Assembly: GCA_018335655.1 (NCBI GenBank)
Contig: JAGXRX010000028.1
Coordinates: 1 to 64,000 of the forward strand
Source of the DNA: Erysipelothrix sp.
Lineage (GTDB): Bacteria; Bacillota_I; Bacilli_A; Erysipelotrichales; Erysipelotrichaceae
Direction of reading: 5' to 3'
DNA length: 64,000 nt
The position numbers were made by a program, and so were the translations under genes. The notes beneath the pieces were generated by a model. That model saw only the letters and a list, made by a program, of their open reading frames with translations, did not search any database and was not told the DNA's origin. This document shows, piece after piece, positions 1,563 through 19,845 of this stretch (positions are counted from its first letter, which is position 1; each line of letters begins with the position of its first letter).

Positions 1563-2321
1563 ATGACACAACACATCTGTATTGTTACAGGTGCTGCAAG
1601 TGGGATTGGCTTAGCTATCTCAGAAGCTTTTGTGGCCCAAGAATTCCAAGTATTAATGGTAGACGTACAAAAAGAAGACTTATTATTACATTCAAAACGA
1701 CTAGGATGTCCATCATTACAAGCGGACATCTCTTCAAGAGAAGACTGCAAATCAATTGTTAAGACAGCAGTTGATTTATTTGGTCATGTAGACATTTTAG
1801 TGAATGTTGCTGGCCTTCAACATGTCTCCTCCATCGAAACATTTGATGAAGATAAATGGGATTACATGCTTGATGTGATGTTAACAGCACCATTCTTACT
1901 TACTAAGTATGTATGGCCAAGTATGAAAGAAAGAGGATGGGGTAGAATTATTCATTTGAATTCAATTCATGGATTAGTCGCTTCAGAATTTAAATCAGCC
2001 TACATCAGTGCAAAACATGGACTAAGTGGTTTAACTAAAGTATCAGCTCTTGAAGGGGCACCATATGGCATTACTGTTAATTCAATATGTCCTGCGTATG
2101 TGAAAACACCTTTAGTGGATAAGCAGATTGCTGATCAAGCACGTATCCATGGAATTGATGAAGACGATGTTGTTACTAAAATTATGTTACAAAAATCAGC
2201 CATTAAAAAATTAATTAAGACAGAAGATATTGCATCGATGGTACTCTATTTATGCAGTCATTCAGCAGACATGATTACAGGATCTACGATGACTATTGAT
2301 GGTGGTTGGACTATCGCATAA
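1563..2321 (+). CDS. 3-hydroxybutyrate dehydrogenase-like SDR oxidoreductase
   Basis: VTGAASGIGLAISEAF, YISAKHGLSGL, GITVNSICPAYVKTPLV; GGAGG RBS places the start at ATG 1563 rather than the track start 1551. Confidence 0.8.
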   Translation: MTQHICIVTGAASGIGLAISEAFVAQEFQVLMVDVQKEDLLLHSKRLGCPSLQADISSREDCKSIVKTAVDLFGHVDILVNVAGLQHVSSIETFDEDKWDYMLDVMLTAPFLLTKYVWPSMKERGWGRIIHLNSIHGLVASEFKSAYISAKHGLSGLTKVSALEGAPYGITVNSICPAYVKTPLVDKQIADQARIHGIDEDDVVTKIMLQKSAIKKLIKTEDIASMVLYLCSHSADMITGSTMTIDGGWTIA

Positions 2322-2350
2322 TACTTAAGAATACCTTAATAAGAGTAAAT

Positions 2351-2377
2351 AACGTTCAAAATAATTTGAACGTTTTT
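2351..2377 (+). terminator. Rho-independent terminator
   Basis: AACGTTCAAA-ATAA-TTTGAACGTT followed by TTT. Confidence 0.75.
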
Positions 2378-2487
2378 AAATCCTAAAATTAGTTATATTT
2401 TTAACAAGTAAAACCAAAGTTTATTGAAATTCGAAAATTCCAAGTCTATAATTATGATAAAGAGTATAACTCAAGTGGGGTAAAATA

Positions 2488-3468
2488 ATGACCTGTAAAC
2501 ACTGTGGACAACCTATTGATTTAGATAAGGAACATCAATGCATTGTGAAAGAGAAATATAATCAAAAAACAATCTCTATCATCATGCCACCCGCACCACA
2601 TCGCTCTTCACCATCCCTAGATCAAAGTGTTTTATCTTTATCAGGAAATCATCCAGAACATATCACATTAGAACAAGTACTTGATTTTAAACAAGAAACT
2701 GAAGGCTTTATTAAAGAAGTTTTAAATGTTGTAAAGATTTGGAAGAAATTTGTTAAGAAGCCCACAAAACAAAACATTATTCTAATAATTTGTGGTGTTA
2801 TTGCTTTCATACTTTGGTTTTGGACAAAATATGCCCCAGGAGGATTTAATTACATGCCTCCAACAGGATTAAAAGCAGTATTTTCCTTTTTAACAGCGAG
2901 TTTCAATAATGTACCATCTCGTATCCTTCATTTCTCAGCTTTAGTTACACTTGTGAGTGCCTTTTTGCCTGCTATCTTAGGAGGGCAATATGAAAAAGTC
3001 ATTGCTAACGTGAATGGTGTTATCCAGCTGATTATTAAAGTTATCTCTTATAAGAAAAGCCAAGTCTTTTATACGCTCATTATTGCTGCTGGAGCAGGTT
3101 TATTCTTTTCTAACTATATGATGAGAAACAACTCTATTAACAAATACTTCGCTTGTTTTACTTTAGGAACTATGATTATGTTATCAACTTCAGGCCTTTT
3201 TAAGTCAACATTTGTAAGACTTATGAAAGGCCTTTTAAATGACATAACAAAACTATTAAAGATTAAGGATTTTTATACTAAGTATCAAATTGCAATTCAG
3301 TTAGGATTTGGTGGAGGATTAGTACTTTCCATTGTTAGTTCATTAATTCGAGATATAAGCAGTAGTGCTTTCACAGACAACCTTGGTTACTTTCTTGGAT
3401 TCATAGTCTTTGTCACTGGAATTACTTTAAGTTTTCAAAACCTTAAGTTAAAGAGAAAAGCAGTATGA
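2488..3468 (+). CDS. Zinc-ribbon-headed multi-pass membrane protein of the radical SAM cassette
   Basis: N-terminal MTCKHCGQPIDLDKEHQC (CxxC plus downstream Cys), then several hydrophobic segments; ATGA overlap with next gene. Confidence 0.65.
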   Translation: MTCKHCGQPIDLDKEHQCIVKEKYNQKTISIIMPPAPHRSSPSLDQSVLSLSGNHPEHITLEQVLDFKQETEGFIKEVLNVVKIWKKFVKKPTKQNIILIICGVIAFILWFWTKYAPGGFNYMPPTGLKAVFSFLTASFNNVPSRILHFSALVTLVSAFLPAILGGQYEKVIANVNGVIQLIIKVISYKKSQVFYTLIIAAGAGLFFSNYMMRNNSINKYFACFTLGTMIMLSTSGLFKSTFVRLMKGLLNDITKLLKIKDFYTKYQIAIQLGFGGGLVLSIVSSLIRDISSSAFTDNLGYFLGFIVFVTGITLSFQNLKLKRKAV

Positions 3469-4547
3469 TTCAACACCGCTTTGACTTTAAATATCGTTAT
3501 GTGACAACTTTTGATCCAAAGTCTGGAGAGTACTTTCGATCTAATGTGTTTGATAAAGATGGAAGTGATACTGGCAAAGAACCTTTTATGGGAGATTTTC
3601 CACACTTATTAGATATTGGCATTAAAGGCTTTTGTGAGCATGGCTTGTCAGGGAAATGTATGGAGGCAGGGACATATTGTTATCAATTAGGTGCAGAAGT
3701 TTCTTCAAAAGACATGTCATTAGAAGATTACACCCATATTATTAAACAATGTGAAAACAAGACTTTTCAAGTTGCATTAGGAGGACGAGGTGATCCAGAT
3801 TGTCATCCAGACTATGAAGCAATATTGAAAGTAACACGAAATCATAATATCGTTCCAAATATTACCACATCAGGATTTCTATTCACAAAAGAAAAAGCTC
3901 GCATTACAAAGCAATATTGTGGTGCAGCAGCAGTGAGTTGGTATAAAACTCCTTACACATATAAAGCTATTGATTATCTTCTTGAGGCTGGAGTTGTGAC
4001 TAACATCCACTTCATCCTTCATGAGAAAAGTATTGAAGAAGCGATTGATTTAATGCAACGAAATGCTTTTCCTCAAGGGATTAGAGCTGTTATCTTTTTG
4101 CTCTATAAACCTGTAGGTTACAATCGCACTGATTTAGTTCTAAAAAAAGATAATCCATATTTAAAGCAGTTCTTTGAACTCATGAATGCTGATAATCAAA
4201 CCTTTATGATGGGATTTGACTCATGTTTAGTGCCTGGTGTAGTCAATTACTGTAAAGATGTTGCACCACAATGTATAGAACCATGTGAAAGTGGTCGCTT
4301 CTCTGCATATATTAGTCCAGATAATAAAATGTATCCTTGTTCCTTTATTCAGTCACCACAATATGAATGTGACTTAAAACATTTAAGTATTCAACAAGTT
4401 TGGAATAGTTCTGTTTTTGAAACATTTAGAACACCTCAACGAATAGCCTGCCAAGCATGTTCAAAAAGAGAATTGTGCTTAGGAGGATGTCCTGAACTAA
4501 ACATAATCAACTTATGTCAAGATAAGAAAGAGGGGATCAGAGAATGA
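3465..4547 (+). CDS. Radical SAM/SPASM domain protein
   Basis: DIGIKGFCEHGLSGKCMEAGTYCYQLG cluster region, LGGRGDP, C-terminal SPASM-like Cys pattern GRFSAYISPDNKMYPCSF...C..CSKRELCLGGCP. Confidence 0.8.
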   Translation: MIQHRFDFKYRYVTTFDPKSGEYFRSNVFDKDGSDTGKEPFMGDFPHLLDIGIKGFCEHGLSGKCMEAGTYCYQLGAEVSSKDMSLEDYTHIIKQCENKTFQVALGGRGDPDCHPDYEAILKVTRNHNIVPNITTSGFLFTKEKARITKQYCGAAAVSWYKTPYTYKAIDYLLEAGVVTNIHFILHEKSIEEAIDLMQRNAFPQGIRAVIFLLYKPVGYNRTDLVLKKDNPYLKQFFELMNADNQTFMMGFDSCLVPGVVNYCKDVAPQCIEPCESGRFSAYISPDNKMYPCSFIQSPQYECDLKHLSIQQVWNSSVFETFRTPQRIACQACSKRELCLGGCPELNIINLCQDKKEGIRE

Positions 4548-6979
4548 AACAACGTCGAGGATTCGTCACTAACTCAAGTTCAACCAATGATATCTTTGTT
4601 GCGCTAGGAACAGCTGGTGCCGCTGCAGCACTAGGAACTGTGATTAACACTATTCAAGTGTCTAAGAATACTGAGATAGTTTCCTATGCCATCTTAGACA
4701 CACTTCATCAACCTGAAGAGCCACGACCTCCTGAGATTAGAGTCAATGATTCTGAATATGTCGCATGGTTTTACTCAGGAGTGAGAATCATTGATGTTCA
4801 ATATGCTTTTGATGAAGAAAGTCAAGAAACTCAAATTACTGTGTTAAGAGATGAGTATGATAGTAGTTATACTTCACAGATTAAATATAGTATCCCAGAA
4901 GCTTATATCGAAAAATGGCTCACCTTTGCAACATCAGGAGAGGATATTGCAACGATGAGTGGAGATTATAAGGTGTGTGGATTTATGTGTGAGTCTTGGG
5001 AAAATGATAAACCACGAAGTCAACGCCAAGGGATTGCTGGAAAAATGAGTTTTGATGTGAGTGTTGATGTAGCAGGGAAACCACTGTATAAAGGAAAACA
5101 AGTTAATATTAAAAATGAATCAGACTTATATGCTAGTGATGGGTATGCCCTTAATGATGCGAATATCACAACAACTATTCCAATAAGGTTGATTAATCCT
5201 GATAAGTATAAGTGGAAACTTAGTTATGAAGTTTCAAAGAGTGATTTAGAAAAATATGCTCATGTTGAACTTAGACATAATAAAGATGAATCAAAACCTA
5301 GTGTTTTAATCTATGATTTAATCATCAAACCTCATGGAAATCCGCTAGGAAGTAAGGAGAATCCTCTAAATAGTATAATTGCTAGACTTGATATTAAAGG
5401 TGAACCAAGTAGTAATCATATAAGTGACGTTTGGGATTATCTAGAACTAACGCTTATCGATGAAGGAATACTTTTCGAAGGCAAAATGGATGAAGAATCA
5501 CGCTTAGAAGTAGTATCTTACTGTGAAGAATCATCTGAAAGCACAGAACCTTCTAAAGAAATTCCAGCAACTCCATTCACACTAAAATGTGTTATTAAGG
5601 TTGAATCTGAAGATGAATCAAGTACCGCACAATTTGTGGACATGAGCGAAGCAGAAATTTCCTTTAAACCACTTATTGGATCTGATGATGCAACTGATAA
5701 TCTTGTGAAAGCTTATGAATATGAGATTAAGTTTGATGGGCATGCAGGAAATTATCGCTTTGAGCCTAAGATGCAACTTCCAACAAGTAAAACTCCTTAT
5801 GTGGTTAAACTACCAGTAGAATGTAACGTCAAAAACAAAACATATCATTTAGATTTACCAATTCAACTCATTGGAGAACCTTATGGTAGTAAACAGGCTT
5901 GGGAAGATGAGTATCGCAACTTACGTATCATTATTAGAAAATACATTCCAGCAGAACAATGGAGTGATATTTTAAGAAATATTGAAGATAATAAAAACCG
6001 CTTAAGTATAGAACAACTTCGTCTCATGCGACGTAGTATTTATGAGACCGCACGTGATCAAATCACTGCCCAGGCTCAAGGCTATCAATCGATTGCTAAT
6101 ATATGTGAGTGGACAGAATGGGGACTAGAAGGCGTTAAATGGTTAGGTGATCAAGCATTTTCATATCTTATGGCAGTATACACAGGACCAGTTGGAGAAG
6201 CATTTATTGTGCCATTTAAAGATGTTTTAACAATGGTTGTCGCAGATGAAGTTACTGGATATATTTGGGGTGGTGCAGGAGCATACAGTGAAGATCAAAT
6301 TGCAAGAGGATCTTTATCCGCTATTTTCACATCCTTTGAGAATGCAATTAACATCGGTGCTGATGATATGGTGGGTGCACAAAGTCTAAGTATCAAGCAA
6401 CTAGGTCGCTATCTTGCAGCATTCGCAACCATAAAGTGTTTAAATCATTATTTCAATGACGTTAAAGATGATGGAAGCCCAATAGGATTTTGGGATGCCA
6501 TTGTGGAAACATGTAAAGACCTCAGTATCAACTTCTTTAAAAATATCGTGGCTAAGAAGTTTGAAGCGATGATGAAATCAGATAAGGCTGGTGAATTATT
6601 TGAAAAGTATGTCTCTAAGCAATTTAAAGAACAATTATTAAAAGTGATACCAGATTGGGATAAGGTAGGAATATCTGATCCTCGTAGTCTAGAAATCTTG
6701 GGTAAATATCTTTCAGAGTTCGCAGGATTTGTGTCATGTTCTGCTTATGGTAAAACAGTGAGCGTTGCCTCAACCAACGAGATTATAAGTGATCATAATG
6801 AAACCATCATTTCGTTTAATTTAAGTAGTGATGCGAATAATCCATGGATTGTCAAAATCAGCTTAACTAAGATTAAAGATTCCCTTTCAGACTATATCTT
6901 TAATTCTATGTTCTCTAGTTTTCCATTCTCATCATCTCCAATTAGTCCAAGTGATGATCCTACCTTCTACAAAGCCTAA
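4544..6979 (+). CDS. Large uncharacterised protein with N-terminal RRGFVTNSSST motif; putative radical SAM substrate
   Basis: 811-aa ORF with 4-nt ATGA overlap to the radical SAM gene; MKQRRGFVTNSSSTNDIFVALGTAGAAAALGTVINTI N-terminus. Confidence 0.7.
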   Translation: MKQRRGFVTNSSSTNDIFVALGTAGAAAALGTVINTIQVSKNTEIVSYAILDTLHQPEEPRPPEIRVNDSEYVAWFYSGVRIIDVQYAFDEESQETQITVLRDEYDSSYTSQIKYSIPEAYIEKWLTFATSGEDIATMSGDYKVCGFMCESWENDKPRSQRQGIAGKMSFDVSVDVAGKPLYKGKQVNIKNESDLYASDGYALNDANITTTIPIRLINPDKYKWKLSYEVSKSDLEKYAHVELRHNKDESKPSVLIYDLIIKPHGNPLGSKENPLNSIIARLDIKGEPSSNHISDVWDYLELTLIDEGILFEGKMDEESRLEVVSYCEESSESTEPSKEIPATPFTLKCVIKVESEDESSTAQFVDMSEAEISFKPLIGSDDATDNLVKAYEYEIKFDGHAGNYRFEPKMQLPTSKTPYVVKLPVECNVKNKTYHLDLPIQLIGEPYGSKQAWEDEYRNLRIIIRKYIPAEQWSDILRNIEDNKNRLSIEQLRLMRRSIYETARDQITAQAQGYQSIANICEWTEWGLEGVKWLGDQAFSYLMAVYTGPVGEAFIVPFKDVLTMVVADEVTGYIWGGAGAYSEDQIARGSLSAIFTSFENAINIGADDMVGAQSLSIKQLGRYLAAFATIKCLNHYFNDVKDDGSPIGFWDAIVETCKDLSINFFKNIVAKKFEAMMKSDKAGELFEKYVSKQFKEQLLKVIPDWDKVGISDPRSLEILGKYLSEFAGFVSCSAYGKTVSVASTNEIISDHNETIISFNLSSDANNPWIVKISLTKIKDSLSDYIFNSMFSSFPFSSSPISPSDDPTFYKA

Positions 6980-6983
6980 TAAT

Positions 6984-7019
6984 AAAAAAAGATGATCAAG
7001 CATTGTTGATCATCTTTTT
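6984..7019 (+). terminator. Rho-independent terminator closing the radical SAM cassette
   Basis: AAAAAGATGATCAA-GCATTG-TTGATCATCTTTTT. Confidence 0.85.
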
Positions 7020-7027
7020 GATTTGAA

Positions 7028-7393
7028 TTAAAGCTTTATGTTAAACACAGATAGTAATTGAGTATAGAGTACATACGTCACAATGAGGATAAGACTAGAA
7101 CTAATAAGTGCTCCATAGAATGGGAAGTTCATTCTTAAGAAAATTGGAAATACGATAAAGAAGATAAGCGATGGAATAACCATCCAAAATATTATCTGTG
7201 AAAGATCAATCATGGATTGAACTGAACTACCATCATGATACATCCAAACTAAAGCTAAGATACTTGTGAGTGGTAAAGAAGCAATTAAGCCACCAATTGT
7301 CGTGTTTTTGCGACTAATATAGGCAATCACTGAAATAATGAATGCTGAGAATAATGTTTTAATTAAGAATTCAAGAGTAAACATAATGGTCAC
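7028..7393 (-). CDS. DUF3147-like small membrane protein
   Basis: 121 aa, four hydrophobic helices, TTIGGLIASLPLTSILALVWMY; overlaps the upstream PNP gene. Confidence 0.65.
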   Translation of the reverse strand: MTIMFTLEFLIKTLFSAFIISVIAYISRKNTTIGGLIASLPLTSILALVWMYHDGSSVQSMIDLSQIIFWMVIPSLIFFIVFPIFLRMNFPFYGALISSSLILIVTYVLYTQLLSVFNIKL

Positions 7394-16989: not shown

Positions 16990-19845
16990 GTGAGCATCAA
17001 AAAGTACATGCAAATTCTGATAATCACTTCCTTAATGGTTTTGATGCCATTTTCTTTTTTTACTAACTCAAAAATACATGCTGATAGTCATATTGTTTTA
17101 AGAAGTGCTTCTGAATTTGATTATCCTCCATTTTCAGTTGTCAAAGACGGTGTTGCGGATGGCTTTTCAGTTGAACTGTTAAAGGCAGTAGCAAATGAAA
17201 TGGGATTAGCTATTGAATTTAAAGTTGACCAATGGAATATCATTAAACAAGAACTAGAAGATGGAAAACTTGATGTTTTGCCACTTGTAGGGTATTCACA
17301 AGAACGTGATGAGGTTTTTGATTTTACGATACCATACATTGTCATGAGAGGTAATATCTTTGTTCGTGACGATTATAATGATATACGAAGTGAAGATGAT
17401 TTATTTGGTAAAGAAATTATTGTTATGCGAGATGATAACTCACAGGAATATGCTGAGTTACGAAACTTTACTGACAAGTTAATCCTTGTGAATACTTATG
17501 CAGAAGCATTTGAATTATTAAGTTCTGGAAAACATGATGCTGTACTTGCGCAAAGTCTTGTTGGAGAGAAACTCATTAATGATTTAAATATTAAGAACAT
17601 TAAGGCAGTAACTCGACTTGCAGACAATGGGATTGATAGAATTCGAGTGTCTTTAAGTGGTTTTGAACAGAAGTTTAGCTTTGCGGTACAAGAGGGTAAT
17701 AAAGAATTACTTGCCTTACTTAATGAAGGCTTAGCCATTGTTATTGAGAATGGAACATATGAGAGACTTTATGAAAAGTGGTTTACTTTTTTAATTGATT
17801 CTTCACCTGACTATACTCAAATAGTTAATATATTCTTTGCGATTATTTTAATTTTAATTATGCTTATGCTTTTAATTTCATATTTAGTAATTCGCAAAGA
17901 GGTTAAAAGACAAACCTTCAAACTTAAGAATAATCTAGATAGAAACACCATTATGTTTAATACAATAAATCAAGAGCTTGATTCTGTTTCTGATTGGTTA
18001 GATTATGTTTTAAATCAAATGATCAAAATGACAGGCTCAGAATTTGGTTATATCTATTTATACCAAGAAGAAAACGATGAGCTTATTCTTAATGCATGGT
18101 CTCATGAAGTTAAACATGCATGTCGTATTGATGATGAAAAATCACGATATTCATTAAATGAAACTGGTTTATGTGGTGAAGTGATTCGTCAAAGAAAACC
18201 GATTACCATTAATGATTTCGCTAAAGTGGATAATCAGTTAATTGATTATCCTCAAGAACATATTTCAATGAAGAAATGGATGGGGATTCCTGTATTTGAA
18301 GATAATAGAATTGTTGCGAGTGTTGGATTAGCTAATAAAGTTGAAGATTATGATGAGAATGATATATATCAAGTAACTTTACTCATGGATGGAGTATGGA
18401 ATCGTATAGAAAAAGCTCAAAACAGAGATGCTTTAGAGGTTGCTAAAAACAAGTATTTATCAACGATTGTATCAATTGGTGATGGTGTCATGGTTGTTGG
18501 TCTTGATGAAAAAATTGAAATGATCAACAAAGCATGTGCTGATATGACAGGTTGGCAAGAAGATGAAGCCATTGGAATACATTATAAAGATGTGTTTATG
18601 ATTACACATGAAAAAGCGAATCATAGTATTACAGATCCTGTACTTGAAGTCTTAAAGACCAAGGAAAGACGTGAACTTAGAAATCACACAAAATTGACTT
18701 CAAAGGATGGACGATTTTTCATTATTGAGAGTAGTGCAGCACCTGTACATAATTTAAGAAATGAGATGCTTGGGGTTGTCTTAGTCTTCAGAGACATGAC
18801 TATTAAACATAATCAAATTAAAGAGATTGAATACTTAAGCTACCATGATTCCTTAACAGGGCTTTACAATCGAAGATTCTTTGAAGAAGAATTCAATCGC
18901 CTTGATACTCCTCGAAATTACCCCCTTACCATTATCATGGCAGATCTTAATGGTTTGAAGATTACAAATGATGCATTTGGTCATCATGCTGGAGACGAGT
19001 TACTAAAAACAACCGCAACACTCTTTAAAACATATTTAAGATCAGAAGATATTGCAGCACGTTGGGGTGGAGATGAGTTTGCGATATTGATGCCAAAAAC
19101 ATCCTCTTCAGAAGCTGAACTCATTGTGCAAAGAATTACCCAAGGAATAGAACAGTTTAGTAAAGATGCTGGAGTATTGTCAATTGCATTTGGATGGGAA
19201 ACAAAGACTGACAAAACAATGGGATTAGATGAGTTGTTTAAAAATGCTGAAGAATATATGTATAAGCGAAAAGTGAATGAAAGTCAAGGTATACGAGGTT
19301 TAACGATTAAGACCATCATGAATACCTTGTTTGAAAAGAGCCCACGTGAAGAACAACATAGCCAACGTGTTAAGGACATGGCAATAAAGATTGCGAAAGC
19401 ATTGAATTTAAATCAACATGAAATTGATGATATCGCAACACTAGGACTACTTCATGACATCGGGAAGATCATTATTCCCACAGAGATTCTTGAGAAAAAA
19501 GGTCCACTTACTGATGTTGAGTTTGCAGAGATTAAGAAACATCCAAGTATTGGATATCGTATTCTTGTTTCTACTAAAGAATTTTCAAGCATTGCGGATG
19601 CAGTGTTGTCTCATCATGAACGATGGGATGGAAAAGGTTATCCTAATAAAATAAAAGGGGATAGTATTCCTCTTGCATCAAGAATCATTGCCATTGCAGA
19701 TGCCTATGATGCCATGACTAACTCTAGACCTTATCGTGAGATAGGAATCTCACATGATGAGGCCCGACTAGAAATAATTAAAAATGCAGGAACTCAGTTT
19801 GATCCTGATATTGTAGCGCTTGTTATTAAAAATAAGATTATATAA
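16990..19845 (+). CDS. Sensor protein: SBP_bac_3 - TM - GAF - PAS - GGDEF - HD-GYP
   Basis: GTG start; ABC-type amino-acid-binding domain with YPPFSVV...GFSVELLKAVANEMG; RSEDIAARWGGDEFAIL; HDIGKIIIP...SHHERWDGKGYPNKIKG. Confidence 0.92.
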   Translation: MSIKKYMQILIITSLMVLMPFSFFTNSKIHADSHIVLRSASEFDYPPFSVVKDGVADGFSVELLKAVANEMGLAIEFKVDQWNIIKQELEDGKLDVLPLVGYSQERDEVFDFTIPYIVMRGNIFVRDDYNDIRSEDDLFGKEIIVMRDDNSQEYAELRNFTDKLILVNTYAEAFELLSSGKHDAVLAQSLVGEKLINDLNIKNIKAVTRLADNGIDRIRVSLSGFEQKFSFAVQEGNKELLALLNEGLAIVIENGTYERLYEKWFTFLIDSSPDYTQIVNIFFAIILILIMLMLLISYLVIRKEVKRQTFKLKNNLDRNTIMFNTINQELDSVSDWLDYVLNQMIKMTGSEFGYIYLYQEENDELILNAWSHEVKHACRIDDEKSRYSLNETGLCGEVIRQRKPITINDFAKVDNQLIDYPQEHISMKKWMGIPVFEDNRIVASVGLANKVEDYDENDIYQVTLLMDGVWNRIEKAQNRDALEVAKNKYLSTIVSIGDGVMVVGLDEKIEMINKACADMTGWQEDEAIGIHYKDVFMITHEKANHSITDPVLEVLKTKERRELRNHTKLTSKDGRFFIIESSAAPVHNLRNEMLGVVLVFRDMTIKHNQIKEIEYLSYHDSLTGLYNRRFFEEEFNRLDTPRNYPLTIIMADLNGLKITNDAFGHHAGDELLKTTATLFKTYLRSEDIAARWGGDEFAILMPKTSSSEAELIVQRITQGIEQFSKDAGVLSIAFGWETKTDKTMGLDELFKNAEEYMYKRKVNESQGIRGLTIKTIMNTLFEKSPREEQHSQRVKDMAIKIAKALNLNQHEIDDIATLGLLHDIGKIIIPTEILEKKGPLTDVEFAEIKKHPSIGYRILVSTKEFSSIADAVLSHHERWDGKGYPNKIKGDSIPLASRIIAIADAYDAMTNSRPYREIGISHDEARLEIIKNAGTQFDPDIVALVIKNKII

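Follow-up and report, generated by a model that had tools for sequence, protein, structure and literature searches.

The locus and its radical SAM/SPASM enzyme

Within the 64,000-nucleotide stretch of Erysipelothrix DNA analyzed here (contig JAGXRX010000028.1; hereafter the window), three genes on the plus strand form a coupled operon. Gene 1 (2488–3468; 326 amino acids) encodes a polytopic membrane protein for which 20 homologues were aligned. Gene 2 (3465–4547; 360 amino acids) encodes a protein of the radical S-adenosylmethionine (SAM)/SPASM type, as judged from Pfam Radical_SAM and SPASM matches and an AlphaFold2 (AF2) model. Gene 3 (4544–6979) is an open reading frame of 811 amino acids whose product opens with a short N-terminal tag, MKQRRGFVTNSSSTNDI (4544–4594, plus strand), and this tag recurs on otherwise dissimilar proteins encoded near relatives of gene 2. 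We propose that gene 2 is a tag-modifying enzyme and that the tagged gene 3 product is its substrate.

The open reading frames and the ATGA overlaps at both gene junctions (3465–3468 and 4544–4547) are as an earlier note on this DNA had described them, and the operon has a promoter-like site of its own, a sigma-70-like TTGAAA-17-TATAAT at 2424–2452 on the plus strand that is a consensus match only, at 11 of 12 positions. The same note had placed terminators on both flanks. The downstream one stands, as a bidirectional terminator-like hairpin of 14 pairs found by the hairpin scan at 6986–7019, but the upstream hairpin (2351–2377, stem 2351–2374), which separates the operon from the gene before it, is weak, being A+T-rich with three G–C pairs and scoring as terminator-like in the terminator scan on the minus strand only. 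Strong purifying selection acts on the protein encoded by each of the three genes, with ratios of nonsynonymous to synonymous substitution rates (dN/dS) of 0.078 for gene 1, 0.088 for gene 2, and 0.069 for gene 3 relative to a copy from the same genus with 93–95% protein identity.

The assignment of gene 2 as a radical SAM/SPASM enzyme agrees with domain searches and with structure prediction. The protein matches Pfam SPASM (PF13186) above the cut-off (1.6e-6) and Pfam Radical_SAM 0.1 bit below it (1.1e-6). A generic SPASM domain model is the sole NCBIfam model that it passes, and it reaches no named NCBIfam radical SAM family, with a best score of 42.6 bits against a cut-off of 265. The earlier note had also considered that the protein might be a known maturase for an unrelated substrate; it falls in no known maturase family. 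Single-protein sequence searches against solved structures gave no match, and a profile search gave weak matches only. The AF2 model (mean predicted local distance difference test [pLDDT] score of 93.8) was aligned to SAM-bound SuiB and anSME; its closest solved structures are SuiB, PqqE, CteB, anSME (4k38), and SkfB, with template modeling scores of up to 0.68, against SuiB. The predicted fold is nearest to those of peptide- and protein-modifying SPASM enzymes.

The putative radical SAM cluster cysteines, C57, C65, and C72 (3633–3680, plus strand), are spaced CX7CX6C, as in 91 of 102 homologues. Spacing in the remaining homologues is variable, with CX3CX2C in an Agrobacterium member and CX7CX2C in phage RB16. 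The window protein does not have the standard CX3CX2C of the radical SAM superfamily; because accepted members with other spacings exist, we call CX7CX6C a variant spacing and do not take it to exclude the protein from the superfamily. The SPASM domain (4284–4517, plus strand) has the complete seven-cysteine pattern: C274, C292, a CX2CX5CX3C segment (C329, C332, C338, and C342), and C351. Of these, C274, C292, and C342 are invariant, and the other four are at least 90% conserved.

At one locus (L132; IMGVR_UViG_3300032038_000305), an intein-like insert of about 412 amino acids (CLSENEIVL ... GIISHNC) interrupts the radical SAM gene in frame within the conserved ALGGRGDPD motif, and homing-endonuclease-like genes are fused to, or lie beside, the phage enzyme gene at two others (L106, 1458–3317; L150, 3106–3834).

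A shared N-terminal tag and its linkage to the enzyme

The first relatives of gene 2, which are 48–49% identical to it, adjoin proteins of 471 and 120 amino acids that match gene 3, beginning MKQRRGFVTNSSST, in the first residues only (MKIKVDHVTNSSSE and MKVRTDFVTNSSSS). The same pattern of tagged neighbors is seen among gene 2 homologues collected from more than 100 genomes, phages, and plasmids, among them 80 loci from GTDB and 17 from IMG/VR. The consensus of 131 distinct tags is MKIRTDFVTNSSSSSF, in short form MKxRxxFVTNSSS, and the pattern can be written M-K-[IVFY]-R-x-[DG]-[FYH]-V-T-N-S-S-S. Across these tags, N10, S11, and S12 never vary, K2, V8, and T9 hardly do, and an aromatic residue (F, Y, or H) always occupies position 7; the consensus contains no cysteine.

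Behind the tag, the proteins differ. By body sequence they fall into 47 clusters that have the tag alone in common. Most are 110–900 amino acids long with conserved bodies, a few of which match Pfam families (BspA-type leucine-rich repeats [LRR_5], BRCT, PQQ-propeller, and similar), with most matching none; no sulfatase domain was found by Pfam search in 50 tagged proteins. The body of gene 3 has no match in Pfam, NCBIfam, or PHROG, and its AF2 model (pLDDT of 37) is too low in confidence for use. The dedicated pairing of gene 3 with the enzyme, as originally suggested, is supported, but the constant part of the partner is the N-terminal tag and not the 811-residue body.

The invariant serines of the tag are encoded by both TCN and AGY codons, which argues that the tag is selected as protein; an RNA-level signal was considered as its role and is ruled out by this codon diversity. 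A Shine–Dalgarno-like site is found just 5′ of 136 of 144 tags, compared with 19% of random ATGs, indicating that the tag is a true N terminus. At one locus (L071, about 7092–7140), a stop codon stands at the first serine of N-S-S-S (N-stop-S-S), which points either to a pseudogene or to an error in the sequence of this metagenome-assembled genome.

Enzyme and tag are closely linked. In a set of 90 enzyme loci flanked on both sides by 1 kb or more, a tag gene lies within 4 kb in 85 and within 200 bp in 73; in 36 cases the nearest tag gene overlaps that of the enzyme or sits just at its edge. No tag gene is present at eight loci that entered the collection through weak matches to radical SAM proteins of other kinds. 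Full-length tag matches were also counted in a sample of 587 genomes (296 Bacilli and 291 Clostridia), where enzyme and tag occur together in 10, the tag only in one, the enzyme only in none, and neither in 576 (Fisher test, 9e-21, uncorrected for relatedness, with many genera spanned). Every one of 20 enzyme-bearing genomes or records tested has one to five tags. In a reverse test, 25 viral records were picked by the tag DNA pattern, 20 of them with true tags and five with spurious matches; the enzyme is present in 14 of the former and in none of the latter, and two records hold nine tag genes apiece.

Gene 1, phages, and plasmids

Homologues of gene 1, which belongs to no Pfam or NCBIfam family, always lie directly upstream of the enzyme gene, at about 20 loci that include distant genomes. 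The three genes thus stay together outside the window's genus, a point on which the earlier note had let its proposal depend. In the enzyme tree, gene 1-bearing loci form one clade (98% support in the Shimodaira–Hasegawa-like approximate likelihood ratio test), with gene 1 present in 17 of 17 rows inside the clade and in none of 46 outside. The membrane protein is therefore an accessory of one clade only, a three-gene form within a larger family. Its description as a zinc-ribbon membrane protein holds in its second half: the zinc-ribbon-like cysteines at the start of gene 1 are restricted to the window's own genus and are missing from the 18 other homologues in the alignment, and we reject the zinc ribbon as a defining feature.

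Partners in this clade are long (median of 503 amino acids). In gene 3, a hydrophobic, signal/anchor-like stretch follows directly on the tag (4589–4645, plus strand), as seen from hydropathy in a comparison of the three-gene set with other tagged proteins; a strongly hydrophobic stretch occupies this place in 17 of 19 partners from the three-gene clade, compared with 3 of 121 elsewhere. This distribution suggests that gene 1 goes with membrane-directed partners. Some starts in the clade look like lipoprotein signal peptides, judging from motifs such as LAGILASC at locus L018 and a similar one at L085.

Large phages carry the pair in a looser arrangement. The T4-like phages RB16, RB43, and Lw1 each have a divergent enzyme and exactly two tagged proteins about 20 kb away. 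In RB16, the enzyme, only 26% identical, lies at 90.4 kb, and the two tagged proteins lie at 67.1 and 71.0 kb, with annotated starts that agree with the tag. Among other enzyme-bearing phages, CPRSA has three tags and Vibrio phage D479 has five; no tagged protein was found in T4. A phage-like contig (L112) serves as a bridging member: its enzyme resembles that of RB16, and two tag genes are linked to it. When named phages were searched for relatives of one phage partner that lack the tag, no relatives of any sort turned up.

On Agrobacterium, Rhodobacter, and Rhizobium plasmids, the enzyme is part of a conserved operon that encodes a SMEK-domain nucleoside triphosphatase (NTPase), a small protein, a tagged protein of about 131 amino acids, and the enzyme. 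The NTPase (loci L111, L151, and L152) matches SMEK_N (3.2e-42), NACHT weakly, and PADLOC Avs2 (1.5e-21), and the Avs2 match suggests that this alphaproteobacterial SMEK-NACHT variant is a candidate defense system. The window cassette contains no such NTPase gene. Radical SAM-SPASM genes have been predicted to modify small gene products in conflict systems centered on vWA/NACHT NTPases (eLife 2020, PMC7159879). The alphaproteobacterial operons, with their Avs2-like SMEK-NACHT protein, resemble those systems; the motif types named there (FxSxx, RxD, acidic, and FtsH-associated, in a C-terminal peptide) differ from the N-terminal tag.

Proposed modification of the tag and alternatives

We consider it likely, on the strength of these sequence comparisons, that the locus encodes a system for tagging proteins, with the radical SAM enzyme recognizing and modifying the N-terminal tag of its partners. 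Gene 2, as an oxygen-sensitive radical SAM/SPASM enzyme, would recognize the tag pattern given above and make a radical-based change inside it, most likely on the invariant V-T-N-S-S core. SPASM enzymes form cyclophane and ether crosslinks, and anSME, a seven-cysteine SPASM enzyme that modifies a short protein motif, can oxidize serine. A V-T-N-S-S core that never varies and an aromatic residue at position 7 would suit either kind of chemistry, and the candidate changes are an internal crosslink or the oxidation of a residue, such as a serine in the manner of anSME. The body behind the tag would be interchangeable, which would make the tag portable as a site of modification. For the window itself, the partner would be the 811-residue gene 3 product, with its tag followed by the hydrophobic stretch, and the clade-specific gene 1 protein probably handles, anchors, or exports it. 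The simplest idea of purpose is that the tag would provide one common handle for location, stability, or recognition. The view of the earlier note that enzyme, substrate, and membrane partner form a dedicated system is in keeping with their co-location and with the absence of gene 2 from known maturase families, and we infer that gene 2 modifies gene 3.

Several known systems come close to this one. The radical SAM/SPASM maturases of ribosomally synthesized and post-translationally modified peptides (RiPPs), such as SuiB for streptide, CteB and SkfB for sacti- and ranthipeptides, PqqE, and the cyclophane-forming enzymes, share with the gene 2 family the fold, the seven-cysteine SPASM domain, a substrate gene in the operon, and a common substrate motif. 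Unlike those maturases, the gene 2 family has mostly full-size partners with dozens of unrelated bodies, a motif at the extreme N terminus without cysteine or tryptophan, and CX7CX6C instead of CX3CX2C in most members, and gene 2 passes no NCBIfam maturase cut-off. Sactipeptide and ranthipeptide maturases need a cysteine in the substrate motif for thioether formation, whereas the tag offers none. anSME is alike in its seven-cysteine SPASM domain and in acting on a short motif within a protein; however, the proteins that it modifies all belong to a single homologous family and carry C/S-x-P/A-x-R, a motif that differs from the N-terminal, sulfatase-free tag. Prokaryotic viperins (pVip) have a distant similarity to gene 2 that is low in score and covers the radical SAM core only, whereas gene 2 and its family combine a SPASM domain with a protein partner; identity with viperin was rejected.

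Several observations weigh against modification of the tag. The CX7CX6C spacing is unusual, so that the catalytic competence of gene 2 is assumed. Six viral records with true tags are without the enzyme, three of them longer than 30 kb, and genome G168 has weaker tag-like matches but no enzyme. The one tag-only genome (G319) encodes a 51-residue tag peptide (locus L113, 3382–3552 of contig C156) near a different, unrelated radical SAM/SPASM gene (2188–3138), which may mean that this tag has been put to use independently. Alternatively, the tag may serve for docking and stay unmodified like a leader, and the enzyme would modify a site in the body or bind the tag as a regulatory partner. Recognition leaders are the rule in RiPPs, and the K-x-R positions of the tag resemble recognition residues; no site is conserved across the 47 body clusters, however, whereas N-S-S is invariant in all 131 distinct tags, and we regard docking as unlikely.

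A classical RiPP pathway, in which the tagged protein is a precursor that releases a modified N-terminal peptide for export by gene 1 as a small product, would suit the facts that RiPP precursors are the most frequent targets of SPASM maturases and that the three-gene form combines a membrane protein with a hydrophobic stretch after the tag. The partners are not short precursors with leader and core, however, but mostly proteins of 110–900 residues with conserved bodies (dN/dS of 0.069 for gene 3), LRR and BRCT folds among them; the loci show no consistent link to a peptidase, and gene 1 is confined to a single clade. Such a pathway is, in our judgment, quite improbable. Even less credence can be given to the idea that the tag is a targeting or translation element chemically unlinked to the enzyme, with the two hitchhiking together in mobile DNA. 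The patchy occurrence of the genes on phages and plasmids and the position of the tag at the extreme N terminus speak for it, but presence and absence track each other even at about 20 kb in phages, no enzyme-bearing genome in the Bacilli and Clostridia samples is without a tag, and codon use excludes a signal in the RNA.

Returning to modification of the tag, we lean slightly toward a general post-translational tagging system across anaerobic bacteria, plasmids, and large phages, in which one enzyme family would install the same modification on dozens of unrelated tagged proteins, including phage proteins and Avs-like NTPase partners, and the modified tag would be a common handle for localization, stability, or recognition. 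Searches of Pfam, NCBIfam, PHROGs, and PADLOC found neither the tag nor gene 1 represented by a model and gave generic domains only for the enzyme, and the letters of the tag gave nothing relevant in the open-access literature. Within these databases and that literature, this large enzyme–tag family in bacteria and phages is apparently undescribed. Peptide- and protein-modifying SPASM enzymes are known; new is the portable N-terminal tag on unrelated proteins. Known radical SAM chemistry concerns short precursors of peptides or individual families of proteins. If the proposal is correct, one enzyme family acting on a portable site in many unrelated proteins would represent a new logic for this chemistry, testable roles would follow for many proteins of phages and gut bacteria that are currently termed hypothetical, and a tag of about 16 residues would become available for genetically encoded protein modification.

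Elsewhere in the window, positions 16990–19845 encode a 951-residue protein that, read by eye, appears to combine solute-binding, GAF/PAS, GGDEF, and HD-GYP domains in one chain.

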